Below, piece by piece: positions 6,189 to 45,451 of a stretch of DNA of 64,000 nt; positions within the stretch are counted from its first letter, which is position 1, and each line of letters opens with the position of its first letter. The notes under the pieces were generated by a model. That model made no database searches. It was not told the origin of the DNA and was given only the letters and a program-made list of their open reading frames with translations. Source of the stretch: an uncultured Prevotellaceae bacterium (GTDB lineage: Bacteria > Bacteroidota > Bacteroidia > Bacteroidales > Bacteroidaceae); contig CADCBZ010000013.1 in NCBI GenBank assembly GCA_902799765.1, forward strand, positions 22,417 through 86,416, written 5' to 3'. Position numbers and translations under genes: made by a program.

Positions 6189-6190
6189 GA

Positions 6191-6218
6191 AGTGAAAAAT
6201 GAGAAGTGAAAAGTGAAT
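6191..6218 (+). repeat. Heptad tandem array, AGTGAAA type
   Basis: Four imperfect seven-base units (AGTGAAA, AATGAGA, AGTGAAA, AGTGAAT) fill the gap between the ClC gene and fmt. The same kind of array, with unit AGTGARR, occurs inside cbiET at 53341 and, as a purine-rich variant on the opposite strand, inside cobT at 13312. Confidence 0.7.
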
Positions 6219-6224
6219 AATTTT

Positions 6225-7202
6225 ATGGAGAAGAAGGATTTAAGAATCGTGTTTATGGGTACACCGGAGTTCGCAGTAGAGACACTGAAGGCTCTGGTAG
6301 AGAACGGGTATAATGTAGTGGCGGTGGTGACACAGCCCGACAAACCCGTAGGTCGTCATCAGAATGAGGTACAGCCCTCAGAAGTGAAGAAATATGCACT
6401 CGAACACCAGTTGCCTGTGCTTCAGCCTGAGAAGATGAAAGATCCGGTCTTTGTGGAGCAGTTGCGTAGTTATAAGGCAAATCTTCAGGTGGTAGTCGCC
6501 TTCCGTATGTTGCCTGAGGTAGTTTGGGATATGCCTGCCTATGGCACTTTCAATGTGCATGCGGCCTTACTGCCCCAGTATCGTGGTGCAGCTCCTATCA
6601 ACTGGGCGGTCATCAATGGCGAGACCCGTACAGGTGTTACGACCTTCTTCCTCGACAAGGATATCGACACAGGTCGCGTAATCCTGCAAAAGCCTTTCGA
6701 CATTCCTGACACGGCTGATGTGGAGTATGTATATAACGGTCTGATGCATCTTGGTGCTGACATCTGTTTAGAGACTTTGGAGAAGATTATTGAGGCCGAT
6801 GGACATCCAGAGAGTATCCCTCAGGAGGATCTCATGGGTAACGTGCGTCGTCTCTATGATGCGCCGAAGCTGTTTAAGGAGGTCTGTGAGATCAACTGGG
6901 ATCGTCCTTGTAAGCGTATCTATGACTTCATCCGTGGACTGAGTCCGTATCCTGGTGCCTGGACAACATTGATGGGACCTGATGGCAAGTCGGTTGACCT
7001 GAAGATCTTTAAGACGACGAAGACAGAAAAGAATCCTGGTATGCGTCCAGGTATGATTGTGGTCTATAAGGGCGTGCTCTATATCACCACTAGTGATTTC
7101 CTGCTTCAGATCGATGAATTGCAGTTGGCAGGTAAAACTCGTATGAAAGCCCGTGACTTCCTGAATGGTAATAAAAATATTGAGAACTATATAATAAAAT
7201 AA
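6225..7202 (+). CDS. fmt: Methionyl-tRNA formyltransferase
   Basis: Transfers a formyl group from 10-formyl-THF to initiator Met-tRNA. The start is set at ATG 6225, giving MEKKDLRIVFMGTPEF, the typical N-terminus; a GTG at 6213 lies inside a heptad repeat and is less likely. The catalytic block reads FNVHAALLPQYRGAAPI with the DKDIDTG aspartate downstream, and the C-terminal OB-like domain is present. At 325 residues it is full length. It is probably the last gene of the + strand run that starts before LysE. Confidence 0.95.
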   Translation: MEKKDLRIVFMGTPEFAVETLKALVENGYNVVAVVTQPDKPVGRHQNEVQPSEVKKYALEHQLPVLQPEKMKDPVFVEQLRSYKANLQVVVAFRMLPEVVWDMPAYGTFNVHAALLPQYRGAAPINWAVINGETRTGVTTFFLDKDIDTGRVILQKPFDIPDTADVEYVYNGLMHLGADICLETLEKIIEADGHPESIPQEDLMGNVRRLYDAPKLFKEVCEINWDRPCKRIYDFIRGLSPYPGAWTTLMGPDGKSVDLKIFKTTKTEKNPGMRPGMIVVYKGVLYITTSDFLLQIDELQLAGKTRMKARDFLNGNKNIENYIIK

Positions 7203-8594: not shown

Positions 8595-8670
8595 ACTTTA
8601 ATCATTTAAAATTCTGAGTAAAGTCTGTTTCGATAGGCAATAACGTTTTAAATTGTTAATTATTCGTGTG

Positions 8671-8702
8671 CAAAAATAGGCTTTTTTATTGAAACTACCA
8701 AA
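8671..8702 (-). promoter_or_regulatory. Bacteroidetes-type promoter of the ECF sigma gene
   Basis: On the minus strand TTTG (8699-8702) and TATTTTTG (8671-8678) are 20 nt apart, matching the -33/-7 consensus TTTG/TAnnTTTG. The expected start of transcription leaves a leader of about 70 nt before the ATG at 8594. Confidence 0.7.
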
Positions 8703-8732
8703 TAATTGGCAAAAAATGTGGCGAAGAGTACG

Positions 8733-21889: not shown

Positions 21890-23056
21890 TTATTCTGAAG
21901 CGGTCGTAGGCGTAGAGAGTGCCTCGTCAGTACCCAGTTTGGCAATAGCCTCCTTGGTGTGGTTCATCCACAGCTTACGAACGGCGCTGCGCTCAGCCAG
22001 ACCAGGGATATACTCATCGCCACTCTTGTACTGCTTCCAGCAAGGCTCGGTGAAGTTGGTCTCATAGGCTTCTGTTTCGATACCAGCCTCATTGAACAGA
22101 GAGTACCAGCTCTCATCGTCATCGGGATCAGCCATATCGTTGTGGGCATGATCTCCGGCGATTGACATCAGCACGAAGAGCTGGGCTTTCTTGGCGTCGT
22201 TGGCAGCATAGGTAACGCTCTTGGTCACATCACCAATCTTGTAGTCGAATTTTCCGCCAGCAATGTGCTTCAGTACATCCTCAGCATAAGTCTCGTCCAT
22301 ATCTACTGTTCCTACATAGTATTTAGGATTGATGGCACGGAGGTATTCCTCCAGTTGTATATAGCGTACGTTACCGCCATAGTAGTCATACCCCTCAGGG
22401 TTACCATGACCCATGAAAGCTACGATACCATCAGCTACAGCTGCCTTCACGTCGGCTTCATTGTTAAGAGTTGTAGCCAGTGCCTTGGCGTCGCTCTCCT
22501 CTGCCATCAGCGGGGTGCCTACCACCACCTGACGATCGAGGCTCTTCATGTAGGTATCGGTGAAGTCACCGTTACGGTTGTTCATGAAGTCCTTCACATA
22601 GCTGTCGCGAACACGGCGATACTCCTCACCAGGGATCACCTGCAGCGACTGTACCACGATCTGCTTGTAACCTGCCAGACCGATGGCGGTGAGCCAGTGC
22701 TCTGGATCGTAGTAGTCCTTAGGCGCTACATTCTCACCAGCACGGGCATTGTTGATACAGATGGCTGAAGAGAAAGAGAGATAGACATCCCAACCTGAGA
22801 ATGCTGCCTTGTAGTCGTCAACCACCTTGTCGAAGGTGTCGTAAGCCTGCTCCCAAGTAGAACCGAAGGCTACAAGCAGGATTACCTTATCGCTCTTCTT
22901 CTGTGAGTTAACAGTCTGATTTACAGCCTGCTGATAACGATCGTAATTTGACTGATTACCATTGTTCTTGTTGTCATCGTCACTGCTACAAGCGGTGAAC
23001 GTTGCGCTGGCAACGAATGCCATCATAGCCAGCATGAAATACTTAATCTTGTTCAT
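21890..23056 (-). CDS. cbiK: Sirohydrochlorin cobaltochelatase CbiK, lipoprotein form
   Basis: A 388-residue CbiK-type chelatase, which inserts Co2+ into sirohydrochlorin, the first committed step of the anaerobic B12 route. Two likely metal-site blocks are visible: FMGHGNPEG near 214-222 and GDHAHNDMA near 305-313. Unusually the protein begins with a lipoprotein signal (MAFVASATFTACSS, Cys near residue 23) and a Ser/Asp/Asn tether, so the enzyme should sit outside the cytoplasm. It lies between two TonB receptors, overlapping the upstream one by 14 bp. It may act in the periplasm or on the surface in tetrapyrrole or cobalt handling rather than in classical synthesis. Confidence 0.88.
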   Translation of the reverse strand: MNKIKYFMLAMMAFVASATFTACSSDDDNKNNGNQSNYDRYQQAVNQTVNSQKKSDKVILLVAFGSTWEQAYDTFDKVVDDYKAAFSGWDVYLSFSSAICINNARAGENVAPKDYYDPEHWLTAIGLAGYKQIVVQSLQVIPGEEYRRVRDSYVKDFMNNRNGDFTDTYMKSLDRQVVVGTPLMAEESDAKALATTLNNEADVKAAVADGIVAFMGHGNPEGYDYYGGNVRYIQLEEYLRAINPKYYVGTVDMDETYAEDVLKHIAGGKFDYKIGDVTKSVTYAANDAKKAQLFVLMSIAGDHAHNDMADPDDDESWYSLFNEAGIETEAYETNFTEPCWKQYKSGDEYIPGLAERSAVRKLWMNHTKEAIAKLGTDEALSTPTTASE

Positions 23057-31346: not shown

Positions 31347-32368
31347 AGCGAACCCTACCACTGATATGTACCCTCATCGTGGGTATTCTTGCACTGCTGA
31401 TCGTTAATCTGCTGATTGGCTCAGTGAGGATCCCTGTGTCAGAGGTATGTCGTATCCTCTTGGGGGCTGAAAGCAACGAGATCTGGACAAACATTGTATT
31501 CAGCAGTCGTTTGCCTCAGGCGTTGACGGCTATCATGGCAGGGGCTGGTTTGGCTGTCAGTGGACTTCAGATGCAGACGGTATTCCGTAATCCCTTGGCT
31601 GGTCCTTCTGTGTTGGGTATCAGCAACGGTTCTGCCTTAGGAGTCGCCTTCGTAGTGCTGCTCTCTGGACGAATCGGTGGAGTGGCACTTTCTCGTCTGG
31701 GCTATCTGGGCGATGCAGCGATGAGTGTTGCTGCCATCGTGGGTGCGCTGGCTGTGATGTCACTGATCCTGTGGGTGTCGCAAAAGGTGAGGGACAATGT
31801 CACTTTGTTGATTATCGGTGTGATGATTGGTTATCTCGCTACTGCGATTATTGGTGTCCTGAAGTTCCTGTCGCCAGAAGAAGATGTGAAGGCTTTTGTA
31901 GTATGGGGATTGGGCTCGTTCTCACGTGTCTCTGGTGATGAAATGGTCCTCTTTGTCGTACTGATGTGTGTGTTGTTGCCATTGGCCTGTCTGTTGGTGA
32001 AAACGATGAACCTCCTCTTGTTGGGTGAACGATATGCTGCAAACTTAGGTCTGAACATCCGTCGCAGTCGTATGCTGGTGATTATCTCCTCTGGTGTGTT
32101 GGTGGCAATTGTGACAGCCTATTGTGGACCTATCATGTTTATTGGTCTGGCAGTCCCTCATCTGGCTCGAGCCATCTTCCGCACTTCCGATCATCGTGTC
32201 CTCATGCCTGCCACAGCCCTCTGTGGCGCAGTATTAGCCTTGTTCTGTAATCTGATTGCCCGTATGCCAGGTTTCGAAGGTGCCTTGCCTGTCAACTCCG
32301 TTACAGCCCTGATAGGAGCCCCAGTCATTGCTGCTGTCCTGTTCCGTAAATCTGCCCTTCGTCACTGA
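31343..32368 (+). CDS. btuC: FecCD-family ABC permease, probable cobalamin importer
   Basis: A 341-residue inner-membrane permease with about ten helices. It has the family blocks SSRLPQALTAIMAGAGLAVS, GLQMQTVFRNPLAGPSVLG and, near the end, GPIMFIGLAVPHLAR (coupling-helix region) and LPVNSVTALIGAPV. It forms a four-base-overlap pair with btuF. The expected ATPase gene does not follow; instead the last 44 bp overlap the 3' end of the convergent cbiJ-cbiD gene. The protein itself looks complete. Confidence 0.88.
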   Translation: MKRTLPLICTLIVGILALLIVNLLIGSVRIPVSEVCRILLGAESNEIWTNIVFSSRLPQALTAIMAGAGLAVSGLQMQTVFRNPLAGPSVLGISNGSALGVAFVVLLSGRIGGVALSRLGYLGDAAMSVAAIVGALAVMSLILWVSQKVRDNVTLLIIGVMIGYLATAIIGVLKFLSPEEDVKAFVVWGLGSFSRVSGDEMVLFVVLMCVLLPLACLLVKTMNLLLLGERYAANLGLNIRRSRMLVIISSGVLVAIVTAYCGPIMFIGLAVPHLARAIFRTSDHRVLMPATALCGAVLALFCNLIARMPGFEGALPVNSVTALIGAPVIAAVLFRKSALRH

Positions 32369-34067
32369 TCAGTAGGATGGTCAGCGTACCATTGAGTAGT
32401 AGCGGTTTGCAGTACCTTTCGCAATGACGGATGATGGTGCTTGCGAAATCCTGTATCTGTTGTTCAGGTATTTTCTCCCATAGTTCTCTTGCTAAGGTGA
32501 GGTCGCTGATGTCGATGGGAATACCTGCTTCTTCGAGCATCTCACTGAGAAACGCCTTATCCATCGTGGTCTTCCGACTATGCGTGTCCAGATGACCTGC
32601 AGCGAGTTTCACAGCTTTGCCTAACATCACACCAAGGGTTACTTCTTTGATGTTCAGTTCGTGGGCGATTTTCAAGGTCTCGCCGATATAGTTGCCGTAT
32701 TCCACAAACGCCTGTTGGGGTAGGTCAGGGTAGAGGGCTTTTACGAAGCGTTCACTCTTGCCGCCACTGTTGATGACTACACGATTGGTGCCACTGGCTT
32801 TGGCCACATTCATGCACTTGCGGATGCTGTCGATGAAGGCTTCTTCGCTGAATGGCTTGACGATGCCAGAGACACCAATAATGCTTATGCCACCCTCGAT
32901 ACCCAGACGAGGATTAAAGGTCCTTTTCGCAATAGCCTCACCTTCTGGTACGGAGATGGTGATACTGAGTAAATCGTTTGTTACTGCTGCAAGATTCTGA
33001 CGAATCATCTCACAAGGTGCTTTGTTGATGGCTGGTGAGCCTGGGGGATAGTCGAAACCAGGAAGCGTGAAAGTGCCAACCCCTTCGCCACCTAAAATCT
33101 CGAAGGTGACAGATGGTTTGACACTCGCCCGTATCTCCAACCCATTCGTCACATCAGGATCGTCGCCAGCATCCTTGATGCAATAGGCATAGCCCTCACC
33201 ATAGCCAACAGCAACATGGATGGTCTCCCCATCAGGCAACAAAACAGGCACCTCTTCTGGTGTCTCATTCTTCAAGAGCCGTATCGTTGCAGCGATAGCC
33301 GCAGCAGTCGCACAAGTGCCTGTGGTGAGTCCGCTATGCAAGGGATAGAACTCTGGCAACAGCTTCTCCACAGCTCGCCGCAGTCCGTAAGGTCCGTTGA
33401 TAATCTTGAAAACAGCAGGTGCCTCAGGGCGTTTCAGTACCAGAATCCGCATCCCTTTAGCTTTGGCAGCATCCACTTTCTCCTGAAAGCCGCCAGAGAG
33501 TCCACTCTCCTTCAATAGGATGGCATCAGCCTCTACAGGCACATCCTTTGGATCTTCGAAATAGCAGAGCTGTTCCATCCTTGCCCCCTGTTTTTGGGCT
33601 AAGGCGATGGATGATTCCCTGTTGAGAATGCGGTAATAGACCTTAACGCCTTTTGCCTCTAATGGTTTCAGTTTGCTGATACTCTGTACACCAGTCGTTG
33701 CCAACAGCGATTTGATATCACGGGGAACCTGTTCATAGCTGTCGAACCATTCCAGACTGGCATCTCTCTCAGGAAAGATGCGCTCATAACGGATGGCAGG
33801 AATCTTTAGGGCATCAGAGACTTCAGCAATCGTCTGGTGAAGTTGGGAAGCAAAGGGGTGGGCTGCATCCACCATCAGACGGATATTGTGCTCACGGCAG
33901 AAGGTAAGCATGGCATCAGTATCCAGCGCACCATCGATGCGCTGTCCGTGATGCAGGGTCAGGTCTTGCTCTCCCGTCTTCGTACTATAATAGTAAGGTG
34001 AGCCACCTTCCTCCAGCACCTCTACAGCCTTACGGCCTTCTGTCGTTCCTCCGAATACCAGTATCAT
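32325..34067 (-). CDS. cbiJ-cbiD: Fused cobalt-precorrin-6A reductase / cobalt-precorrin-5B C1-methyltransferase
   Basis: A 580-residue fusion of two corrin-ring enzymes. Residues 1-245 are CbiJ/CobK (MILVFGGTTEGRKA, MVDAAHPFASQLHQ, LLKESGLSGGF). Residues from about 248 are CbiD, beginning SGLTTGTCATAAAIAA, with later FNPRLGIEGGISIIG and INSGGKSERF. The two do consecutive-stage chemistry in the anaerobic pathway. It overlaps the FetB-like gene by 4 bp upstream and btuC by 44 bp at its 3' end. Both halves look intact. Confidence 0.93.
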   Translation of the reverse strand: MILVFGGTTEGRKAVEVLEEGGSPYYYSTKTGEQDLTLHHGQRIDGALDTDAMLTFCREHNIRLMVDAAHPFASQLHQTIAEVSDALKIPAIRYERIFPERDASLEWFDSYEQVPRDIKSLLATTGVQSISKLKPLEAKGVKVYYRILNRESSIALAQKQGARMEQLCYFEDPKDVPVEADAILLKESGLSGGFQEKVDAAKAKGMRILVLKRPEAPAVFKIINGPYGLRRAVEKLLPEFYPLHSGLTTGTCATAAAIAATIRLLKNETPEEVPVLLPDGETIHVAVGYGEGYAYCIKDAGDDPDVTNGLEIRASVKPSVTFEILGGEGVGTFTLPGFDYPPGSPAINKAPCEMIRQNLAAVTNDLLSITISVPEGEAIAKRTFNPRLGIEGGISIIGVSGIVKPFSEEAFIDSIRKCMNVAKASGTNRVVINSGGKSERFVKALYPDLPQQAFVEYGNYIGETLKIAHELNIKEVTLGVMLGKAVKLAAGHLDTHSRKTTMDKAFLSEMLEEAGIPIDISDLTLARELWEKIPEQQIQDFASTIIRHCERYCKPLLLNGTLTILLISDEGQIYGTGQQQ

Positions 34068-34773: not shown

Positions 34774-35090
34774 TTAATAAGAACTATTTAGAAGATTGTC
34801 CAATTGGGATTGCAACTCTTCTCGATTGGGCAGATAAAGCTGGTAGCGAGCGGCAAAGAGTTGATTGTCTCCTTTCTTGCTCCCAACACAATACCCACAG
34901 GCGGATTGTCATCTGGCTGGCAAATCTCATTCTTAAAATAATTAAGGTTGAGATTCAATTGTCCAGACGCTGTTTGGATTTTTGGGAATCTCATATAAAA
35001 GAGTCTCACATATTTAGAATCATTGTTCTGCATAATGCCTTTAGAGGTTGTTGCCATATCTTTCTTTATTTCTTTTTCGTCCATATTCAT
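34774..35090 (-). pseudogene. Remnant of a DUF1016 (YhcG-type PD-(D/E)xK) protein
   Basis: The ATG at 35090 opens a frame with SKYVRLFYMRFPKIQTASG, which resembles the N-terminal part of DUF1016, joined directly to LNYFKNEICQPDDNPPVGIV from its C-terminal nuclease region. The roughly 150 residues usually between these are absent. A second break follows: after GIVLGARKE the matching sequence NQLFAARYQLYLPNREELQ is in another frame and ends at TAA 34774. At least two losses have therefore hit this gene. Full-length homologues are often found beside type I restriction genes, in keeping with the island that follows. Confidence 0.75.
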
Positions 35091-35209
35091 ATTTCGTTTA
35101 CCGCTCGACCCTAAGGTCGCTTTGTTTACAAAGAATGTTACACCTTTTTATTTATATAGTATGCCAAAATCCGAAAATGTTACACTTCTATTTCTACTTT
35201 TTTATCATT

Positions 35210-36001
35210 TCATTTAAGAGCCAGTCCTTCTGATTGATTTTCACTGATATGATATTTCTCGTATTTCTTAACCAATTCATTAAGGGCGTTTCTGGAATGC
35301 TTATACTCAAGCAAACATTTTTTCAATATTCCAAATCTTATGGTAATATCCTCTATTCCATAAGAAGTTTTCATATTACCACCGCATCTTCCTCTTATTT
35401 GGGATACGAGACTATCATGTTTGATTGTTGACAGAACTCTTAGGTCTTCAGGTGATAGCCATGAAGCCATAGCTTGAATCTCAAATAGGGTCTCGTCTAA
35501 CCATTGTAATGGAAGAGATAAGGCAAACAAGTATTCAGGTTTAAAATGTACATCAGAATCAAATTCTTCGACAGACAAAGTTTCTTCCTCACAATATTGC
35601 TTACAATCTTCTTTTATGACTCTTTCTACAAATGATTTTAAATCGAAATCTGTAGAATAATCCTGATTCGTACTACTTACTGCCATAAAATCAAAAAATG
35701 CTTTCCTTAATTCAACAAGTTTATCAGAAATAAATGGAAGTATAGAAAGACGTCTACACAAATTGGGTATTACAACAGAGATAACAAAGAAAATAGAACC
35801 TGCAATATAGCTTAATGATATCCCCTGAATAATTGTATTAGTAGCATAGTTATATTCTGAAGAAAAATTTGTTTGAATATACCAGCTTGGCAGTAAAGTC
35901 CATAATGATAGAAGCAAGGCAATTGCGGATGACAGCCCAACCCAGATATAGTCAATGGCGATTTCTTTCAGAATTGTTATATAAACACGAACTTTTGTCA
36001 T
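35210..36001 (-). CDS. Two-helix membrane protein of the accessory island, unknown
   Basis: A 263-residue protein with two N-terminal transmembrane segments (about residues 19-38 and 60-82) and a soluble C-terminal part rich in charged residues. No known domain is recognised. It is AT-rich compared with the core genome. It is the last of three small membrane-anchored proteins downstream of the hsdS-type gene, all in one orientation with short gaps, suggesting a shared transcript. No homology-based function can be given. Confidence 0.7.
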   Translation of the reverse strand: MTKVRVYITILKEIAIDYIWVGLSSAIALLLSLWTLLPSWYIQTNFSSEYNYATNTIIQGISLSYIAGSIFFVISVVIPNLCRRLSILPFISDKLVELRKAFFDFMAVSSTNQDYSTDFDLKSFVERVIKEDCKQYCEEETLSVEEFDSDVHFKPEYLFALSLPLQWLDETLFEIQAMASWLSPEDLRVLSTIKHDSLVSQIRGRCGGNMKTSYGIEDITIRFGILKKCLLEYKHSRNALNELVKKYEKYHISENQSEGLALK

Positions 36002-36023
36002 ATCTTGTTTGCAGAACTTATGA

Positions 36024-36464
36024 TTATTCTTTATTCAATGTTGCAATACCTTTTATTATTCCTCGAATTTTCTTTGCAGGTTCTGAGTCATATTGAGAAT
36101 CTGATTTTTCCGTCTCTAAATTAATTTGGTAAGCTCTGGTATAGGCATCATAATATCTATCTTTGTTTTCTTCTAAGAAAACAAGAGATTCTTGAATAAA
36201 TTCGTAATTGTTAATGCTATATGGATTATAATGCTCATATATTGCATTAGCTTGTTTGTGGATGTTCTTAACTCTTTCTAATTCACTGTTGTAATGTACA
36301 GCATATCCGCAAGCTAAAGTCATAATAAAAATGAAAATAGCGTAGAACCAACGATTTGACTTAAACTTATCTGAGATAAAAAGTCCTATAATACTACATA
36401 TAGAAGAGAGTAATCCTATTAATACTGTAAAATTCATAATTATATATAATATTTGTTTTTGCAT
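36024..36464 (-). CDS. Small membrane protein of the accessory island, unknown
   Basis: A 146-residue protein with two hydrophobic segments near the N-terminus (about residues 10-30 and 39-58), then a cytosolic-looking charged tail ending GIIKGIATLNKE. Start 36464 is preferred because AAAAGG lies just upstream; an alternative Met at 36437 would shorten it by nine residues. The layout (helical hairpin plus tail) is like that of the 263-residue neighbour. Function unknown. Confidence 0.65.
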   Translation of the reverse strand: MQKQILYIIMNFTVLIGLLSSICSIIGLFISDKFKSNRWFYAIFIFIMTLACGYAVHYNSELERVKNIHKQANAIYEHYNPYSINNYEFIQESLVFLEENKDRYYDAYTRAYQINLETEKSDSQYDSEPAKKIRGIIKGIATLNKE

Positions 36465-36511
36465 ATACCTTTTAAAATCTTCAATAGTAATTGAACACTT
36501 TATTGTGTTCT

Positions 36512-37252
36512 CTATTGATTCAACAATTGCTCAACAACTTTATTGTTCTGATTGATAACTTCAGACAGTTTATCTATCGGATACTCCTCAATAGGAACAT
36601 CAAGCATATACCTATACATAAACACAAGTTTATCATACGTCTCTATCATTGCACACAAACTATCTTCATTAAATACAGATATTGCAGCAAGCATGTTTTC
36701 TTTATGGCTTTTACGAGAATTGGTTCCCATTTCAATAGCCTTCTGACTCATGGATCCCACAAGCACAATATAAGATTTTAGTATAACTTCTGCACTATAT
36801 GAAAGTAAAGGCTTGATACTTGTAACATATTCCTCAAAAGAGCGGATGTCTTCATCCAATTTACGAACATATTCCCATACATGGAGAATGCAATTCTTGT
36901 CACATTTGTGACTGCATATTTCTTCATTGCTAAACGTCAAGTTGTTCCTACAATCATAAAGGTTAAATGAGCGTAGTCGATTAACATCTTGGTTAAACTT
37001 GGCTATAGAGCGAAGAACTTCTTTCATAACTTTAATTCGCTCTTCCAATGTTGTGCTACTCCTCGAAATGTCTTTTGCCAATGTCGCTTTATGCGATTCT
37101 AAATCTTTATTGAATTTGTTAATTATTGATTGGCGTTTATAAAAGAACAGAGCGGTACATGTTGCAGTGACTATTGAGGCCACGATACTTGCAATTGAAA
37201 TCCAATCTTTTACTTCTAACTCTATCATAATTTGTTTTATCTCTTGAATCAT
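36512..37252 (-). CDS. Single-span membrane protein of the accessory island, unknown
   Basis: A 246-residue protein with one N-terminal transmembrane helix (WISIASIVASIVTATCTALF, about 17-36), then a long helical cytosolic region with a Cys/His-rich stretch CSHKCDKNC (about 112-120) that could bind metal. It begins 7 nt after the S-subunit gene stop on the same strand. It does not resemble any restriction component I know. Confidence 0.7.
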   Translation of the reverse strand: MIQEIKQIMIELEVKDWISIASIVASIVTATCTALFFYKRQSIINKFNKDLESHKATLAKDISRSSTTLEERIKVMKEVLRSIAKFNQDVNRLRSFNLYDCRNNLTFSNEEICSHKCDKNCILHVWEYVRKLDEDIRSFEEYVTSIKPLLSYSAEVILKSYIVLVGSMSQKAIEMGTNSRKSHKENMLAAISVFNEDSLCAMIETYDKLVFMYRYMLDVPIEEYPIDKLSEVINQNNKVVEQLLNQ

Positions 37253-37259
37253 AGAATTA

Positions 37260-38699
37260 CTATTGTAAAATCATTCGCTCCACTTCTTGTTTTGCTGATT
37301 CCAAAATACGTTTCCCTTCGTCCTGTAAGGACTTTGCTTTTTTGCGAATGTCTGCGATGTGGTCGGCTATTTCCTGTTGTTTGTCTAATGGAGGCAAAAC
37401 CACCTTAATGGTGGATATTTCCTCTAAATTGATATTAGCTCTAGCAACAGGACGTTTCAGTCGATTAAGAGAAAGTTGGCCTATACTTGACTTTATCAAT
37501 TCCTTTATGAATTGAACATTATATCCATCTTTTAATCTAACAAGTGCTATTGCCTGATTAATGTTGGCTCCACCATCATAAGGATAGATTCCAACCTGGC
37601 CAATAGTAGCCCCAACAATGGCTATAAGAATATCATTCTTTTGCAACTGAGATGATCGCATCAATGTTTCATGGATTTCTGGCTTCAAATACAGCAAGTC
37701 ATCAAAGTCCAATTCACCTTCAATCGAGATGTTACCGCTTCTTACAAAAGGAACGCCGATTTCCTTGTCTTCAGTATATGCGTCGCCACCTGATTTTGGA
37801 GTGATGCCACTCGTAATGAGTTTTGTTATGTTTTTGAGATTAACGATGGGATAATTACAATATTCCAATGATGTAAATGCATCTCTGAAATATTTTTGTG
37901 AATAATAGGGATCCCAACGATTATCAAAAGTCTTTCTATTTATAGTAAATATCCTATCTTTCAGGTCCGTTTGATATTCTGGTAGCGAAACATCGAGCTC
38001 ATCAAGTATATATGTATCAATACTGTCAAGATATTGCTGAGCCTTGTATTCTTTTTCTTTCTTTTGTTTGATAGCATTGTCAATAGGTGAGAAGTCTATA
38101 CCCTCTATTATTGGAATACTTTTCAATGAAGGATAGTCTAAAGCGGGACGTGTTCCACCTGTAGAATGTCGAGACGCAATCTTTTCAATAATATCAAGGT
38201 TTAAATATCGAGCCAAGTATTTACTCAAAGAAGCATCACCTGTTTTGATGACGACCATGTGCTGATTTGTGTTCCCAACAAATCCATCAGGTGCAACTGA
38301 TGCAATAGCCATTCGTCCAACACCAGTTATTTTCACTAACAAATCACCTTCTGAAACTTGGCTTCTAGCCAATAGGCCATTATGAGTTTCTTCATTAATA
38401 TATATACATCCAGAAAGAGACAACTCTCCATTTGTTTGAAGATTCTGAACTCTAAGAAATGGTATTCCATTCTCTGAATCCGTATAAAATGAGCCTGCCT
38501 CAGTCTTCTTAGGGGTCGCTCCGCCAGCAAATGAAATAGCATAATCTCTCAGTTTATGCGTTGCCAAAGAACGTATTCTTTTTTCAAGTGAGGAGAGGGG
38601 AGGTCTATAGAACTCAGGTTCTAACCTCCTTTCAATCTCCGATCGATTAACGATGAAGATTTTGTCTTTGCTGATATGTTGAGGAACTTGATAACTCAT
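37260..38699 (-). CDS. hsdS: Restriction-modification specificity (S) subunit
   Basis: A 479-residue S subunit with two target-recognition domains. TRD1 lies in about residues 20-190 (NRSEIERRLEPEFYRPPL, GGATPKKTEAG), TRD2 in about 255-450 (NRKTFDNRWDPYYSQKYF, GITPKSGG, IVGATIGQVGIYP). Each is followed by the conserved helix spacer; the last helix reads LDKQQEIADHIADIRKKA. Its ATG overlaps the methyltransferase stop by 4 bp. It sets the recognition sequence of the modification complex, which would be bipartite. Confidence 0.9.
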   Translation of the reverse strand: MSYQVPQHISKDKIFIVNRSEIERRLEPEFYRPPLSSLEKRIRSLATHKLRDYAISFAGGATPKKTEAGSFYTDSENGIPFLRVQNLQTNGELSLSGCIYINEETHNGLLARSQVSEGDLLVKITGVGRMAIASVAPDGFVGNTNQHMVVIKTGDASLSKYLARYLNLDIIEKIASRHSTGGTRPALDYPSLKSIPIIEGIDFSPIDNAIKQKKEKEYKAQQYLDSIDTYILDELDVSLPEYQTDLKDRIFTINRKTFDNRWDPYYSQKYFRDAFTSLEYCNYPIVNLKNITKLITSGITPKSGGDAYTEDKEIGVPFVRSGNISIEGELDFDDLLYLKPEIHETLMRSSQLQKNDILIAIVGATIGQVGIYPYDGGANINQAIALVRLKDGYNVQFIKELIKSSIGQLSLNRLKRPVARANINLEEISTIKVVLPPLDKQQEIADHIADIRKKAKSLQDEGKRILESAKQEVERMILQ

Positions 38700-40858
38700 A
38701 GCGTAGCAATAAACTTCTTAAGTTCTTCACCAATGACATCCAACTCATTTGTAGCAGTTTTCTTGCCAGTAGCATCATAACCAATCTCTTCGGCAATAGC
38801 CATGAAGATAGGATAATCAGGAAGATTACTCTGTTTTGCCTGCAGATACTGCTCTGTCAGATTGGTTTTCAATTCGTCAATCTTTGCAGCATACTCTTCA
38901 AGCATAGAGGCATTCCATGACTTGTATTCGTCTGTTTGCTTTGCAGCAGTAGCCGAAATTCGTTGCTTCCCTTTTATTTCTTCTGCTTTAAGCTTTTGCT
39001 TCTGTTTGATTTCTTTGTCCCATTGAGTTCGCTGAGCGAGGTAATTGCTGTCGCTTAGCAGTGTGTTTTCTATGTTCTTTTTAGTTTGAATGAGTTTCTC
39101 CGTTTCCACCTTCTTCCATTTTCGAAGAAACAAAACAGAACTCTTTACACCAGCACCATTAGCGGCAAATGCTGTTTGGGGCATACTCACCACAGCAACA
39201 ATGCGGAACCAGTCTTCAATCTGAGTCCTGACGTATTGCATACTGCTATTTGTAAGAATGCCATCTGGAAGAACAATTGCCAAATAGCCATCCTCTTTCA
39301 GGAACTTATAATCTTGTTCTATAAATAGTACTTCTGTGCTTTGTCCGTCACGTGTAATCTCTGGTTGGACTTTTACTGCCAGCCAATCTTCTTCTTTCTT
39401 ACCTAGTTGATATGTTTTCAAATATGCCTGCTCGCTTTGGCGGATGGTACTTCCAAATGGTGGATTTGTGATGATGAAATCAAACGTTCCATATGTAAAC
39501 CCTTGGTTGCTAGTTTTTGCAAAAATCATTTCATCAGAAACAAGGCCATCGGAGGTGATGACGTTGGTATGGCCATCGTCGTGGATAATCATATTCATCT
39601 TGGCTGCACGTGATATCTGCTCGCTGATTTCTATGCCATAGAGATTCTTCTCAGCAAAGTCATGCCAATATGGGAACCATTTAGCATATTGCTTGGTATC
39701 TGTCCTGTAGTTAGGATAATAGCTTGTTGCCTGATCACGAACCTTATTTAACGCATAAAGCAAGAAACCACCACTACCGCAAGAAGTATCCAAAACTTTG
39801 GAGTCATTCTTTATAGGCAAAACATCGACAATAAACTTCACAATTTCGCGAGGAGTAAAGTATTGACCAAAGTTACCTCTAAAGAATGATCCCATAAATG
39901 TTTCAAAAGCACGTCCCTTACTGTCAAGGTCCGTCTCACTAAGATTAACGCCTTCAAGATAACCGACAACTGTTCTTATCTTCTCAGGTGTCAAACGGAT
40001 ATTGTCACGAAATACCTCTTTATCTTTGGCCCTACCTTCCTCGTAAAGTGCCTTGATTCGGTTACATAGGTTTTCATTTTCTTTTGAACGCCTTTTTGCA
40101 GCATCTTTCTCTTCATCTCTTGTAACTGTTATGATTTGAAAATCGTAAGGTTCACCCATTCTTCTCGGTTTCCTTTCGTCCCAGATTTTACAGAAGATGA
40201 GTTTGTCCAATTCATCAAAAGCCTCAGAAGGATTTAACTGTCCTCCTGCCCATAATGCTTCATGAGCCTGTTTGAAACGACGCGTCAAATCAGACTGGTC
40301 TATAACAGCCAAGTCAAAGAATCGCTGTTTTCCCGCTTCTTCAGGAAGATACTGCGCCTCATAAACGTATTTATAGGTAGCAATGTTCTCAACGCCGTAT
40401 TGAGGAATGTCAGGTAACTGGTTTCTTGCATTTTGGTTCTTATCAACTTCAAAGTAATCAGACTTAATGCCAGATGTTACCCAGACGTATTTTACATCAC
40501 AAGGCAAAGCAAACGCGTAACTATATGCTTGTTCTATGGCTTGCTGATACTCTGCCTCGCTGACCTCCTGACGTTTACACTCCACCAAGATGTGTGGACT
40601 CATACACATCTCATCATCATAGACAACGATATCTGCTTCTTTGATTTCCCGACCCATAGTAACAGGAACAAACTGTCTTATTCGACTCTCTGGATAATTA
40701 TAATCCAGTATCAGCCTAAGAAACGTCTCAGCCTGTACTTTTTCTTCAGGATTGTTGTAATTACGTTCTTTCTTTTGATAGATATATGTAATTCTGGACT
40801 TGTCTTCATTAAATGAGATAAGCCCTTTGTCAATTCCTAATTGTATATAATCTTTCAT
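38696..40858 (-). CDS. Fused nuclease-like/N6-adenine DNA methyltransferase of an R-M system
   Basis: A 720-residue protein. Residues 1-170 are an HsdR_N-like PD-(D/E)xK domain with candidate active-site residues D76, E93 and K95 (ADIVVYD and LVECKR). Residues about 200-600 are HsdM-type: GQYFTP (331-336), SAM motif DTSCGSGG (357-364) and catalytic NPPFG (465-469). The C-terminus is a charged helical arm. No HsdR translocase gene is present. The arrangement (nuclease and methylase in one chain, separate S subunit) is like the BcgI-type IIB systems; a solitary modification system is the alternative. Confidence 0.88.
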   Translation of the reverse strand: MKDYIQLGIDKGLISFNEDKSRITYIYQKKERNYNNPEEKVQAETFLRLILDYNYPESRIRQFVPVTMGREIKEADIVVYDDEMCMSPHILVECKRQEVSEAEYQQAIEQAYSYAFALPCDVKYVWVTSGIKSDYFEVDKNQNARNQLPDIPQYGVENIATYKYVYEAQYLPEEAGKQRFFDLAVIDQSDLTRRFKQAHEALWAGGQLNPSEAFDELDKLIFCKIWDERKPRRMGEPYDFQIITVTRDEEKDAAKRRSKENENLCNRIKALYEEGRAKDKEVFRDNIRLTPEKIRTVVGYLEGVNLSETDLDSKGRAFETFMGSFFRGNFGQYFTPREIVKFIVDVLPIKNDSKVLDTSCGSGGFLLYALNKVRDQATSYYPNYRTDTKQYAKWFPYWHDFAEKNLYGIEISEQISRAAKMNMIIHDDGHTNVITSDGLVSDEMIFAKTSNQGFTYGTFDFIITNPPFGSTIRQSEQAYLKTYQLGKKEEDWLAVKVQPEITRDGQSTEVLFIEQDYKFLKEDGYLAIVLPDGILTNSSMQYVRTQIEDWFRIVAVVSMPQTAFAANGAGVKSSVLFLRKWKKVETEKLIQTKKNIENTLLSDSNYLAQRTQWDKEIKQKQKLKAEEIKGKQRISATAAKQTDEYKSWNASMLEEYAAKIDELKTNLTEQYLQAKQSNLPDYPIFMAIAEEIGYDATGKKTATNELDVIGEELKKFIATL

Positions 40859-40869
40859 GGATGGACGAA

Positions 40870-41481
40870 TTATTTAGTATCACATTCTTTTTCTTTCCTA
40901 ATATCATCAAGTACTTTCCCATTGTACGAGAAATATTTGGCACCTTGGTAGGCACCAGAAGTGTTGCGATGTTCCTCTGGCATAAAGGTACCAACGAATG
41001 GAGATAGTTTATAGATGCGGCCCTCGTATTCAATAGAATCGTCGGAAGCAACCTTTACTACTATTCCAGTAGGGTCGAAGGTGATTTGTTCGCCAATTTT
41101 GATGCCACACATAGAGAACTTGAAACGGGGGCGTTTTACCTCTCGTTTCTGTGGTTCTTTGTGTTCGCTTTTCACAATAGGCCTGTTATCTTCGTAAAGT
41201 GTCACTTCGGCATCGTCTATTGTCATGGCAATATCACGGAAGATGTCGAGGGCCATCTGTGGGGCCACATTGAAGAACGTCTTATGCACCAATTTCTCCA
41301 CTTCATTGTATTTCGTAGTCTTCATCGTGGCGAAAATCTCGAAGGGCAAGGGAACAGCTGTATTATCCAGTTCTTTGCTTCTCACATCCACAGGACGACT
41401 GCTCTTTCCGATCTTTACCCAATCCTCGCGAAAGCTGGGATTGGTCAGTATATAAACGTAACCTGGTTCTTTGTTGTTCAT
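40870..41481 (-). CDS. GIY-YIG nuclease-domain protein (T5orf172-like)
   Basis: A 203-residue protein. The N-terminal 90 residues are a GIY-YIG-type domain of the T5orf172/MUG113 group (GYVYILTNPS at 6-15, WVKIGKSSRPVDVRSKEL after it). The C-terminal 70 residues hold a small beta-rich module (GIKIGEQITFDPTGIVVKV and YKLSPF) resembling the DUF4357-like domains that accompany such nucleases. The start is ATG 41481; a seven-residue longer form from 41502 is possible. It lies between the methyltransferase and the PD-(D/E)xK-like gene. Likely a DNA-acting accessory. Confidence 0.75.
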   Translation of the reverse strand: MNNKEPGYVYILTNPSFREDWVKIGKSSRPVDVRSKELDNTAVPLPFEIFATMKTTKYNEVEKLVHKTFFNVAPQMALDIFRDIAMTIDDAEVTLYEDNRPIVKSEHKEPQKREVKRPRFKFSMCGIKIGEQITFDPTGIVVKVASDDSIEYEGRIYKLSPFVGTFMPEEHRNTSGAYQGAKYFSYNGKVLDDIRKEKECDTK

Positions 41482-41494
41482 ATTGTAGTAATAT

Positions 41495-41983
41495 CTAATC
41501 AAATAACTTCCAAAAATCTATTGCATTCATGAAGCGGAACTGGGGCTTTCCTGCAAACAGGCGTTTTAGGCGGTTGTATTGGGTAGGAGTCAGTACGCTT
41601 TGTTTGAACAACACGTAGAATACATTAGCATAAGTGTAATCATCGGAGAGAACAAGGGATTTTGAACTGTTCAGCTTTGATTTCAACTCTGTAGGTGAAA
41701 TGTTCTTGACGCTGGTGCTGTTGAACTTTGCATCTGCCAATAGATACTTGTTGCCAGTAATACATAACAATACGTCAGCTGATGCCTGTTTGTCCGTTTT
41801 GTTTTGTTGAGCTATCCGCGTTTGAACTTCATCAAGGGCTATTGCTTTCTGTTCATCCGTGAATTTGTTCTCGCTATCTATACACCCTTCTTTCTTTAGA
41901 AGGGTATGCATACCTTGAATGTCTGACAATAGCAGACTCTTAATCCGAATACCTTTCGGATCTGTTATCGTATATTCAGCCAT
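41495..41983 (-). CDS. Small PD-(D/E)xK-like protein paired with an ATPase
   Basis: A 162-residue protein I do not recognise as a named family. The central strand pair has D70 (SADVLLCITG) and D84-A-K86 (YLLADAKF), the spacing of a PD-(D/E)xK nuclease core, followed by a helix with Ser/Lys residues. Its ATG overlaps the ATPase stop by 8 bp, so the two are translated together. By analogy with ATPase/nuclease pairs of phage defence (for example Septu or Gabija) it could be the effector. The nuclease call rests on a short motif only. Confidence 0.6.
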   Translation of the reverse strand: MAEYTITDPKGIRIKSLLLSDIQGMHTLLKKEGCIDSENKFTDEQKAIALDEVQTRIAQQNKTDKQASADVLLCITGNKYLLADAKFNSTSVKNISPTELKSKLNSSKSLVLSDDYTYANVFYVLFKQSVLTPTQYNRLKRLFAGKPQFRFMNAIDFWKLFD

Positions 41984-43190
41984 TGTCTGTTCCGTATTTC
42001 TCTATCAGTTCATACGACTTGTTGAAAGACTCGAATATAGGTTCGATGTCTGTACCCATAGCCTGATAGTCGTAGGTATAGGCATCAGCTTCTGTAGGAA
42101 CAGCGCGATAGTATGAAAGATGATCAAGCGTATCTTCTTTCTCTGAGATATAACGGAGGGCACTAACCATGTCTGTGCTGTGCGTTGCAATAAAGAATCT
42201 GGCTTTGGTCTTCTTGTTGAGTTCCACTAACACCTTGGCATATTCCACTATCCACTGGGGATGCAGATGGGCTTCTGGCTCGTCAATGATAATGAGTGAA
42301 CGATCATTGATAAGTCCTTTTTTCAAGAGCAACTGGAGAAAGGCGAAAGCCTGCACACCTGTGGCACTTTGTGAAAGATCGAACGTCTGGCCATCATTAC
42401 GCTTGTAAACCAATGTTTTCCATTGTTCTGAATATGATGCGTCACCCTTTAAAATGTTATCCGATAGATATTTACTTATCTCTTGATTATATGCTGCATC
42501 CTTTTGGCTATTAATGTAATCCCATTCGCTATAAGAGAAAGGAATCTCCAGTTTCTTGGGTGTATCAATATATGTGCAGAACTTAACACTATGCAACAAG
42601 GGAACACTCTCTACGCCAGGTCCAAAGAATGTATAGCCATACTCAGAAACTGATACTTTATTAATGATATTATCTTCTTGTAGTTCTGATGCTATCTCGT
42701 TACCTAATTCCTTAAATGGACGATTTTTCTTCCTGTCTTCATATCTGGCAGCAGTTTTATTGAAAACATCCATTATGAGATTAAGATCTTCCTTGTCTTT
42801 TATCTCTATTCCTAAATTATACTTGATGATACTGAGAAGTCTTTTGATTTTCTCGTCTTGTCTAAATGAATCTGTTAACAAGGATATGGCTTTCTGAATT
42901 TCATTTCGAACCTCTTCAACAGTTGTCCCAAACAATAAGTTTAAATCAGAGGGTTTCAATGTATCGTATATTTGTTGACAGACCTCCCTTATTGCAAATG
43001 TTTCAGAATAGAAAACACTCCAATAGACATCATCTAATGCTTTCACTTTATTAAATATCGTATAAAGCAATCTTGACAGAGTACTCTTGCCACTTCCGTT
43101 TACACCTGCGATAACGGTAATGCCATTGAGGTCAATGTCAGCACTGTGAATTGCCCTGAAATCCTTAACAGATATTTTTATGTCACTCAT
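41976..43190 (-). CDS. AAA/ABC-type ATPase of the defence-associated class (AAA_15/AAA_21)
   Basis: A 404-residue SMC/ABC-like ATPase. Walker A is GVNGSGKST (29-37), a signature-like LSQSATGVQ is at 272-280, Walker B LIIIDEPEAHLHP is at 299-311 and the H-loop is IATHSTD (334-340). The region between is helical, and no C-terminal TOPRIM is present, so it is not an OLD nuclease. It is the first gene of the island transcript, with a -7 box TATATTTG on the minus strand at 43222-43229. A downstream partner overlaps it by 8 bp. A defence role is inferred from class and surroundings. Confidence 0.88.
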   Translation of the reverse strand: MSDIKISVKDFRAIHSADIDLNGITVIAGVNGSGKSTLSRLLYTIFNKVKALDDVYWSVFYSETFAIREVCQQIYDTLKPSDLNLLFGTTVEEVRNEIQKAISLLTDSFRQDEKIKRLLSIIKYNLGIEIKDKEDLNLIMDVFNKTAARYEDRKKNRPFKELGNEIASELQEDNIINKVSVSEYGYTFFGPGVESVPLLHSVKFCTYIDTPKKLEIPFSYSEWDYINSQKDAAYNQEISKYLSDNILKGDASYSEQWKTLVYKRNDGQTFDLSQSATGVQAFAFLQLLLKKGLINDRSLIIIDEPEAHLHPQWIVEYAKVLVELNKKTKARFFIATHSTDMVSALRYISEKEDTLDHLSYYRAVPTEADAYTYDYQAMGTDIEPIFESFNKSYELIEKYGTDNG

Positions 43191-43645
43191 ATTTGTCTTT
43201 AATCATTGTCTTTTTCTGCTGCAAATATACAAATAATAATGTAAATAAGCGAAGTTTTTCTTTTTTATTAGAAAAAAAGAATTTAATAGATGTTTTTTGG
43301 TGAATAGGGTGAATCCAACAGTCAAGTGGCAGATGTCCTCTACATTTTTATTTTGATTAAAAATGAGCTATCTATCACTTTTGATGTTAACTACTTGAAT
43401 ATCAGAAGGTTTGTTTGAGTGATAGTTTTCTGTTTACTATCACTGCCATCATGATGCGCTGGAATGCCTTTATATAAAGGGGAAAACGTCATCTACAAAA
43501 GTAAAACAACTTGTTTTACCTTTTAAAAGATATGCTAAACGTTCCTAAAAGATAGTCTCTTTGAAAGTAAAACAAGTTGTTTTGTTGTGAAAGGCTACTT
43601 CTCCGTCAAAGGCAGAGATAGTTCTTTGTTCTCTTTCCTATGATT
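43191..43645. other. Intergenic region between the accessory island and cbiG-cbiF
   Basis: A 455-nt AT-rich stretch without a convincing gene. It contains the promoter of the ATPase gene (-7 box 43222-43229, minus strand) and the paired 17- to 19-bp palindromes at 43501-43583. The rest shows nothing identifiable. It may mark the right edge of the inserted island. Confidence 0.6.
43501..43583. repeat. Two related AAAACAA-S-TTGTTTT palindromes
   Basis: GTAAAACAACTTGTTTTAC (43501-43519) and GTAAAACAAGTTGTTTT (43567-43583) are 47 nt apart. Each is a perfect palindrome around one central base, and the central base is C in the first and G in the second, so the copies are in opposite orientation. 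The AT-rich sequence between them shows no gene. Confidence 0.75.
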
Positions 43646-45451
43646 TTACGAGTCTTTTTCGTCGCCACCTTGACCTTTGGTCGAGCCTTTTCTGAATAGG
43701 TGAGTGAAGTGCTTCGAATAAAGCTCTGAGAGACCTTCGCGATTGTCGATGGCCTCGCCTACGACGAGCATCGTGGTGAGGGTCAAGTTGTTGTCGTGGA
43801 CAATCTTCGCCAAATCCTTCAGCTTGCCTCTATAGATCTTCTGATCAGGCCATGTGAGGTGATAGCAGGCTGCAACGGGGGTGTCCTCAGGGTACTCCTG
43901 AAGCAGTTCACGCTGCACATCATCGACGATGGCGGCAGAGAGGAAGATACACATTGTACTCTGACTCTTTGCCAATAGGTGCAGCTGCTCCCTTTCAGGC
44001 ATTGGTGTGCGCCCTTCGCCTCGCGTCAGGATAATCGTCTGTGTGCGCTCTGGAATCGTGAACTGACTCTGCAACTCTGCTGCTGCGGCGAGGAAGGAGG
44101 AAATACCTGGTGTGATGTGATAATCCATACCTTGTTGGTCGAAGAAGGCCATCTGCTCCTGAATGGCACCAAAGATACAGGGATCGCCTGTATGCAGACG
44201 CACAATGAAGTGCCCCTTGTCGTAGTGCTCCTTCATCAGCTCACATTGTTCCTCGAGATTCATATCAGCTGAAGAACGCACCACAGCCCCTGGCTTATGG
44301 CACTCCGTGAGAGCCTTGGGCACTAGTGAACCAGCATACAGGATCAGGTCGGCTCTTTCGAGCATCTTGCGCCCTCGTACAGATACCAGATCAGGATCAC
44401 CAGGACCAGCACCTACAATCTCGATATGACCTTTCTTTTCTCGTAGATATTTGTAGTCGATAGCGAGGGCAACTGTCCAGTTCTCACCTTTTATCTTGGG
44501 GATGATCAGCTTGCCATGATTAGAACCTACGATGGCAGCAGCCTCGCAGACGCTGGGTGTACCTACATGCTTCTCTACAGTAGCACTGGGATTGGGCACA
44601 TCCACCTGCGCCAACTCCTCTGCTGTATAGAACTCCACCTTCTCTCCATAGGTCTTTTCGAGCCGCCTGCAAAACGGTTCGTCCTTCTTCGCATCGATGG
44701 TGCAATACCTGTGTGAACAAGGCAAAATACCATGATTGATAAGTGCCTCAGCCATCTCGTCGTAGATATATCTGAAGACCTTTGGGTGATGCGCTAAACC
44801 AAAGCCAATGGTCCCCACCATCGGTATAAAATGCAGTACCCACATATCATCTGGCTCTGCATGCACGAAAGGTGTCACCATGATCAGCAACTCGTATTTC
44901 TCAGGATCTGCATCACTGATGTCATCGATGATGGTCACATGTTCCGGCTTGGTCTTCTCCAGATAGTCTGTACCCTCATCGCGCACTTCCAAAAACAGGG
45001 CTGTGGGCTTTCGATTCACGAAAGCATAGATGCACTCCTGCAGCTCTTCTTCGTCACTCATCGTGTCCCAGCCGAAACGCTTCTCAAACGTATCGAGTGC
45101 CCAGAGTCCTGCATTGTCGCTCTGGGTGGTGATTACTTCTCTACCTCCGATGATGCCTGCTGCCTCACGAGCCAGATCGTTCGCTCCTCCGATATGACCT
45201 GAGAGTACGGAGATGGCGTTTATTCCCATACTATCCACACACACCACAGCTGGGTCTTCGTGTTTGTCGTTAACAAATGGTGCAATGGTTCGAACGCAGA
45301 TACCCATTGCTCCAATAAAGATAAAGGCATCCTGCTTCTGCCATTCCTCACTCACTTCTGAGCGCTGAATCACTTTGGCTTTCAGCTCCCTTTGCAGCGT
45401 CGAGGCTATCTCATTGCCTGCCTCACTGATTTGTATAATTGCTATATTCAT
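43646..45451 (-). CDS. cbiG-cbiF: Fused cobalt-precorrin-5A hydrolase / precorrin-4 C11-methyltransferase
   Basis: A 601-residue fusion. Residues 1-340 are CbiG, which opens the ring-A lactone (FIGAMGICVRTIAPF, VLSGHIGGANDLAREAAG, and the C-terminal TPSVCEAAAI block). Residues from about 342 are CbiF/CobM, an SAM-dependent methylase (EIVGAGPGDPDLVSVRG, LHTGDPCIFGA, TPGISSFLAAAAEL). The two act in consecutive steps of the anaerobic pathway. The last residues (STKGQGGDEKDS) are encoded by a small palindrome at 43669-43687, seemingly an added tail. It lies 4 bp after the FMN reductase start side, in the same direction. Confidence 0.93.
   Translation of the reverse strand: MNIAIIQISEAGNEIASTLQRELKAKVIQRSEVSEEWQKQDAFIFIGAMGICVRTIAPFVNDKHEDPAVVCVDSMGINAISVLSGHIGGANDLAREAAGIIGGREVITTQSDNAGLWALDTFEKRFGWDTMSDEEELQECIYAFVNRKPTALFLEVRDEGTDYLEKTKPEHVTIIDDISDADPEKYELLIMVTPFVHAEPDDMWVLHFIPMVGTIGFGLAHHPKVFRYIYDEMAEALINHGILPCSHRYCTIDAKKDEPFCRRLEKTYGEKVEFYTAEELAQVDVPNPSATVEKHVGTPSVCEAAAIVGSNHGKLIIPKIKGENWTVALAIDYKYLREKKGHIEIVGAGPGDPDLVSVRGRKMLERADLILYAGSLVPKALTECHKPGAVVRSSADMNLEEQCELMKEHYDKGHFIVRLHTGDPCIFGAIQEQMAFFDQQGMDYHITPGISSFLAAAAELQSQFTIPERTQTIILTRGEGRTPMPEREQLHLLAKSQSTMCIFLSAAIVDDVQRELLQEYPEDTPVAACYHLTWPDQKIYRGKLKDLAKIVHDNNLTLTTMLVVGEAIDNREGLSELYSKHFTHLFRKGSTKGQGGDEKDS
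43669..43687. repeat. Small palindrome CTTGACCTTTGGTCGAGCC at the cbiG-cbiF 3' end
   Basis: An inverted repeat GACC/GGTC with TTT between. It matches the element at 25255-25275 (CTTGAC-GCTTTGC-GTCGAGCC) except for the central bases. A looser relative, with core CCGCTCGACC and GGTCGCTT, occurs at 26702 and 35101. Confidence 0.65.

Follow-up and report, generated by a model that had tools for sequence, protein, structure and literature searches.

The 64,000-nucleotide stretch of DNA analyzed here (the window; positions 22,417–86,416 of contig CADCBZ010000013.1, assembly GCA_902799765.1, from an uncultured Prevotellaceae bacterium) carries on its minus strand an ABC-type ATPase gene, followed by a gene for a small protein of 162 amino acids (aa) and a third for a GIY-YIG-domain protein (Table 1). 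An earlier note on this DNA had proposed that these genes, placed upstream of a restriction-modification (R-M) system, could form a new two- or three-gene defense system. We found all three open reading frames (ORFs) on the minus strand, at the positions that it gave (the GIY-YIG ORF at 40870–41502), and their coordinates confirmed that the ATPase and partner genes overlap by 8 base pairs (bp). Our analysis supported the proposal in its two-gene version and not in its three-gene version, as we regard the GIY-YIG gene as a passenger.

The ATPase belongs to the AAA_15/21 class, as had been noted, with both Pfam matches above their cut-offs (AAA_15, 75.9 bits against 32.1; AAA_21, 58.1 bits against 27). 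It carries the Walker A, signature, Walker B and H-loop motifs of OLD/AAA_15 ABC ATPases: GVNGSGKST at residues 29–37 (K35), ATG at residues 276–278, IIIDEPEAHLHP at residues 300–311 (E304), and H337, respectively. Its C-terminal tail, DIEPIFESFNKSYELIEKYG, is conserved, and six tail columns (I382, I385, F386, F389, N390 and Y399) are invariant across 9 aligned sequences. The best-matching PADLOC models were HEC-02A (95.4 bits), PtuA (85.2 bits), HEC-02A again (82.5 bits) and AriA (80.3 bits), and the PD-T4-4_A model scored 63.2 bits. A literature search on HEC-02, phage defense candidates and PADLOC found no description of HEC-02.

The 162-aa partner had two chance-level matches in Pfam, both below cut-off, and none in PADLOC, NCBIfam or PHROGs, so that annotation based on these four profile libraries would miss the pair. 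We aligned 14 relatives that share a mean pairwise identity of only 22% (range 12–64%, 91 comparisons), with identity to the window protein falling to 13%; this alignment excluded two damaged partners (genomes G105 and G811), two near-identical ones (G806 and G880) and two from a second clade (loci L022 and L023). Among the 132 columns occupied in all 14 partners, just six keep a constant charged class: E32, D51, D70, D84, K86 and K103. D70 and K103 are identical in every partner, position 84 is always D or E, and position 86 is always K (eight partners) or R (six). The D70 and D84-x-K86 core to which the earlier note had drawn attention is therefore present, in columns that are constant beyond chance. 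PD-(D/E)xK nucleases have an aspartate, then D/E-x-K after a hydrophobic stretch, and a further lysine, an order and spacing with which D70, the D/E-x-K at +14 and K103 agree. Because the partner sequence carries this active-site pattern, we infer that it adopts a PD-(D/E)xK-like nuclease fold.

A scan of genome contigs identified eight Prevotella/Prevotellaceae loci (L004–L011) with 65–98% best-segment identity to the small protein, and in all eight the ATPase gene directly precedes it. Profile searches with the ATPase at an E value of 1e-40 matched at least 10 of 393 genomes in the order (alignment A2) and, with alignment A4, at least 2 of 395 in the phylum, at least 9 of 150 in the genus and at least 4 of 201 in the family; each count includes the window's own genome and is a lower bound, because 4–11 candidates were scored per genome. 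Combined, these searches yielded at least 20 distinct genomes, of which G806 and G880 are probably the same records as L008 and L004, respectively. The conservation of the pair, which had been left as a point to check, held throughout: a small ORF lies directly behind the ATPase on the same strand in 20 of 20 genomes, as in a two-gene operon with the ATPase first, and no loss of the pairing was found. The partner is intact, with a D..(D/E)x(K/R) core, in 17 of these genomes and damaged in three. The two genes overlap by 1–26 bp in 20 of the 22 pairs measured, with intergenic gaps of 3 and 6 bp in the remaining two; among six further close loci, five have the 8-bp overlap and the frame-shifted L008 has none.

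The pair is under purifying selection, with ratios of nonsynonymous to synonymous substitution rates (dN/dS) of 0.06–0.23 for the ATPase (7 sequences, 21 comparisons; L004 and L011 left out) and 0.05–0.12 for the partner (6 full-length copies, 15 comparisons; L008, L010 and L011 left out). The higher ATPase values came from a single lineage, L010, whose six comparisons gave 0.10–0.23, versus 0.06–0.14 in the other 15. The distance matrices of the two proteins correlated strongly (r = 0.82 for 14 pairs and 0.81 for 20 pairs, with none of 5000 permutations as high), as expected from joint inheritance of both genes.

More distant partners form a second clade of five, comprising L022, L023, L065 (an Acinetobacter plasmid), L066 (a Klebsiella plasmid) and L067 (a phage). 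With hhalign, the 14 partners aligned to these five with a score of 37.2, a probability of 55% and an E value, for one comparison, of 1.2e-4, and the D..(D/E)xK columns were in register; the best of 60 column-shuffled decoys scored 20.7 and the reversed control 11.3. Repeating the comparison on another alignment gave a score of 33.3 and a probability of 33%. The degenerate viral partner of L024 was excluded from both comparisons. Searching viral contigs with the partner found no relative, and searching them with the ATPase found 11 loci, five of which (L024–L028) we inspected: L024 (5001–6888) and L025, on contigs classed as viral, carry a related ATPase and a partner of 191 aa with degenerate core positions (D replaced by N, ExK by RTE), and L026–L028 carry larger partners that looked HNH-like by eye. 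The window ATPase matched no plasmid at 1e-30 and no phage record at 1e-20; looser cut-offs brought in two plasmids (1e-8) and one phage record (1e-5), and the Klebsiella ATPase recovered the same three records. A search of E. coli genomes with the Klebsiella pair returned zero matches. One partner-profile match, L013, was rejected, as it sits within an unrelated long frame.

The ATPase motifs, the constant and translationally coupled pairing, the charged core, the purifying selection, the parallel divergence of the two proteins and the presence of the pair at many chromosomal sites are all observed, and on this basis we interpret the pair, with a probability of roughly 0.7, as a two-gene abortive anti-phage system of the WonAB type. 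WonAB, from the WASA-1 prophage of Vibrio cholerae, is described as an OLD-ABC ATPase, WonA, with a 16.1-kDa PD-(D/E)xK protein, WonB, which is predicted to dock on C-terminal extensions of WonA; both genes are reported to be needed, and K34, R182, E300 and H333 of WonA and K71 of WonB to be essential for defense (PMC12137116). By analogy, the window ATPase would dimerize through its ATP sites and bind the small protein through its conserved C-terminal tail, the presumed docking site. A putative phage cue would then alter the ATP-bound state and activate the PD-(D/E)xK protein, which would act as a nuclease and cut a presumptive essential nucleic acid, so that the infected cell would stop growing and no phage would be made. 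The target of WonAB is possibly tRNA or rRNA, because overproduced WonB is described as halting translation while DNA stays intact (PMC12137116).

Several points weigh against this interpretation. The relationship to WonAB is one of plan and motif spacing, and R182 of WonA, named in the account cited above, has no placed counterpart in the window ATPase. The PD-(D/E)xK core was recognized from sequence, and sequence and profile searches against solved structures, whether with the partner alone, with two alignments that include it or with the second clade, returned chance matches only. The two hhalign probabilities make the connection to the second clade a moderate one. Some of the six partners with R at position 86 may be inactive or may use K103 instead. 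Finally, it is not uncommon for the partner to be damaged while the adjacent ATPase frame stays open (G105, G811, G806/L008 and L010).

Table 1. Features of the window locus and its flanks (window coordinates).
Feature	Position	Strand	Basis or remark
OLD/AAA_15-type ABC ATPase, 404 aa	41976..43190	-	ORF list, Pfam, motifs
Small partner, 162 aa, PD-(D/E)xK-like	41495..41983	-	ORF list, conservation in 14 relatives
Partner core codons	D70 41774-41776, D84 41732-41734, K86 41726-41728	-	
GIY-YIG (T5orf172) protein, 203 aa from ATG	40870..41481	-	passenger; PADLOC candidate family PDC-S57, 213 bits
R-M methylase, 720 aa, HSDR_N_2 + N6_Mtase	38696..40858	-	Pfam; neighbor, outside the pair
HsdS specificity subunit, 479 aa	37260..38699	-	Pfam; neighbor of the pair
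-7 promoter-like element TATATTTG, Bacteroidetes type	43222..43229	-	32 bp before ATPase start
Low-GC insertion block: ATPase pair, GIY-YIG, R-M, small ORFs	35002..43266		GC, homology edges, flank comparison
cbiG	43646-45451		flank of insertion block
cbiJ/D	32325-34067		other flank of insertion block

The pair stands at one end of a block of low GC content (0.31–0.42, against 0.47–0.52 in the adjoining 31–35 and 44–46 kb; the region at 46–50 kb is low too) that lies between cbiG and cbiJ/D, at a cobalamin site. A match to cbiJ/D was found in 19 of 60 genomes of the genus, including the window's own, and we examined 15 of the other 18. Both flanks were visible in 12 of these 15 stretches, with cbiG and cbiJ/D adjacent in eight and separated by inserts of ~0.6, 4.4, 13.9 and 3.6 kb in the remaining four. 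The pair was absent from all 15 stretches, none of which matched the R-M queries used, and the four inserts had no evident R-M genes when their ORFs were judged by eye. Because the block is absent from the 12 other resolved genomes, it is an insertion. The 13.9-kb insert (L092, 242–14046) occupies the same site, encodes a protein whose tubulin-like match is weak and below cut-off, together with membrane-like proteins, and is possibly another defense cassette.

The left part of the block (43266–40885) is 90.7–92.2% identical to the window in L005, L006 and L008, whereas cbiG of the same loci is only 76.4–80.3% identical, a contrast that suggests transfer. L004 (81.8%) and L010 (85.6%) each gave a single alignment across cbiG and the pair without such a contrast. 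The upstream DNA differs in L005, L006, L007, L008, L009 and L011, and homology with these six relatives starts at 43229–43266, at or just before TATATTTG, which we call promoter-like on the assumption that TAnnTTTG is the Bacteroidetes -7 consensus. The pair thus appears to be carried along together with a promoter of its own. The DNA examined around L007 and L009 contains no cbiG, and these two pairs apparently lie at other sites.

The R-M genes that the earlier note had placed beside the pair are there, on the same strand, and consist of an HSDR_N/N6-methylase and HsdS; no HsdR-sized ORF was seen adjacent to them in the ORF lists. The HSDR_N domain is N-terminal in the methylase, which resembles MAD2. 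Three small ORFs (263, 146 and 246 aa; 35210–37252) lie 3′ of HsdS and had no Pfam match above cut-off, and the 146-aa ORF has a counterpart, 88% identical, after the same R-M genes in L009. R-M genes begin no more than three genes behind the pair, on the same strand, in the window and in all seven close relatives with sequence there (L011 was not counted, as its sequence ends inside the partner). They are of four kinds: HSDR_N-methylase with HsdS in the window and L009; type III in L004, L005 and L006, and in L008 by its likeness to L005; MmeI type in L007; and a D12 methylase with AlwI in L010.

This arrangement could arise without any functional link, if the pair did no more than provide homology at the island's left end, behind which R-M cassettes swap by recombination. 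We regard this explanation, which is compatible with a WonAB-type function of the pair, as possible but short of even odds. In its favor, the edges of homology are sharp: next to the left block, described above for L005, L006 and L008, there is a short right-hand block (~35002–35177), and nothing between the two matched at 1e-10 in the five other cobalamin-site loci. What it leaves unexplained is the purifying selection on the pair. The right-hand block itself is 85–97% conserved over 69–176 bp among five cobalamin-site loci, and its L005 copy forms the start of an ORF of 353 aa, which we take to resemble DUF1016 and of which the window apparently retains a remnant.

Alternatively, the pair might guard the R-M system, sensing a phage anti-restriction function or R-M failure and killing the cell, a role that PARIS plays with respect to Ocr. 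The R-M genes behind the pair would then be exchangeable, because a guard is indifferent to which R-M system it protects. The four kinds of R-M found behind the pair would suit such a role, as would the co-occurrence of pair and R-M in six of six cobalamin-site blocks (the window, L004, L005, L006, L008 and L010), against no R-M seen at the 12 resolved sites that lack the pair, just four of which hold an insert. In L055 the pair even lies between hsdS and hsdR (named by eye from sequence), and OLD-ABC dyads beside BREX are interpreted as backup effectors in PMC12839542. However, the distant pairs other than L055 had no adjoining R-M among ORFs judged by eye rather than by profile, L008 and L010 have R-M next to a damaged partner, the eight closely related loci represent few independent events, and the two WonAB genes, expressed by themselves, are described as giving protection (PMC12137116). 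On balance we consider a guard role unlikely. Somewhat less likely again is its broader form, in which the pair, constant at the island head as R-M systems are exchanged behind it (HSDR_N-methylase/HsdS, type III, MmeI and AlwI), would serve as a common backup, killing the cell whenever a phage inactivates the R-M system that happens to be resident. The constant head and swappable R-M genes nonetheless supply naturally replicated cases in which to ask whether pairs of this kind guard R-M systems, a question that the account of PMC12839542 takes up for PARIS and for backup effectors of BREX. In literature searches, one of them loosely aimed at this point, no title or opening of an abstract described swappable R-M behind a constant pair, an arrangement that we do not claim to be unpublished.

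The damaged partners bear on a further alternative, in which the ATPase would neutralize the small protein, a toxin, and the main effect of this toxin-antitoxin module would be to stabilize the island. Four partner genes are damaged, one by a frame shift and three by in-frame losses. In G806/L008 (L008, 9966–10441) the core is kept and a 13-bp deletion near the start shifts the frame; L010 (10001–10330), which is outside the 20 genomes, has a 159-bp in-frame deletion that includes D84 and K86; G105 (L017/L059) retains only N- and C-terminal remnants, its core having been deleted in frame; and the partner of G811 (L053, 5154–5510) is reduced to 118 aa and lacks the D70 region. Such damage would be expected if the small protein carried a cost, and a small overlapping partner would also fit a toxin-antitoxin arrangement. 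The ATPase frame, however, remains open beside the damaged partners, and deletion of WonA is reported to abolish the toxicity of WonB, the reverse of what an antitoxin would do (PMC12137116). A toxin-antitoxin module thus appears improbable. Right after its damaged first pair, L053 carries another ATPase gene (PADLOC PDC-M29A, 193 bits) and, overlapping it, the gene for a 142-aa partner (5517–7066 for the two genes) that has a D..E-x-K motif and matched no PADLOC or NCBIfam model.

The GIY-YIG ORF matches Pfam T5orf172 with 40.7 bits (cut-off 20). Its gene probably starts at the inner ATG at 41481, because two relatives have a stop codon before that ATG, and would therefore begin 13 bp behind the partner without overlapping it. 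A 42-bp in-frame deletion has removed 14 residues of the domain in the window relative to all five relatives that have the gene, and the Pfam match spans 1–69 of 101 positions in the window, versus 1–100 in L004 and L006; the lost stretch would presumably hold a catalytic glutamate of the fold. That this protein belongs to the system, as the earlier note allowed, and acts there as a second nuclease is very improbable: of the seven close relatives whose sequence continues past the pair, five have the gene, at 89–91% identity, but it was not found behind the pair in L007 and L009, had no match in the distant loci compared and is damaged in its nuclease domain in the window, so that we regard it as a passenger, probably disabled here. 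Upstream of the ATPase in L009 lies a 95-bp piece (8610–8704) resembling the start of the GIY-YIG gene, a trace of rearrangement. The name PDC-S57 was not found in the literature searched.

Comparison with known systems agreed with the earlier note that the pair is, by domain content, neither Septu nor Gabija. The ATPase matches PtuA models (85 bits at best), but the partner has no HNH match in Pfam or PADLOC as Septu, with its HNH protein PtuB, would require; Gabija has a TOPRIM domain on its ATPase and a UvrD helicase, whereas GajA models of PADLOC match only the ATPase part of the window protein (57 bits), which has no TOPRIM match, and no helicase above cut-off was found among the 10 proteins scanned. 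AriA of PARIS belongs to the same ATPase superfamily (80 bits), and a guard role is possible in both systems, but the PARIS partner AriB is a TOPRIM nuclease and the window partner matches none of the four libraries. MADS can likewise be set aside, as the methylase scored 302.8 bits against MAD2 (NCBIfam cut-off 720) and the ATPase 39.5 bits against MAD3 (cut-off 420). PD-T4-4 (Vassallo et al. 2022), as described in PMC10952713 and PMC12137116, also joins an AAA_15 ATPase to a nuclease-like partner; the window ATPase matches its A model (63 bits) and is closer to HEC-02A (95 bits), and the partner matches no PADLOC model.

Among the systems closest to the pair are WonAB and the OLD-ABC ATPase plus Novel REase family (Krishnan et al. 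2020), a wider family that includes WonAB and, by the descriptions in PMC12137116, PMC12409358 and PMC12839542, has the same gene order and domain plan as the window pair. Like WonAB as it is described, the pair forms a two-gene operon of an OLD-type ABC ATPase followed by a small PD-(D/E)xK-like protein, the spacing of K35, E304 and H337 is nearly that of K34, E300 and H333 in WonA, and the conserved C-terminal tail of the ATPase corresponds to the part of WonA on which WonB is predicted to dock. The pair differs in its chromosomal Bacteroidales host, in the size of its partner (162 aa versus 16.1 kDa), in the R that replaces K86 in six of 14 partners and in heading R-M islands in its close relatives. 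By plan and motif spacing the pair would work as WonAB does, and we place it as a new branch of that plan only, one that would extend this recently described defense by an ATPase sensor and a nuclease effector to the Bacteroidales.

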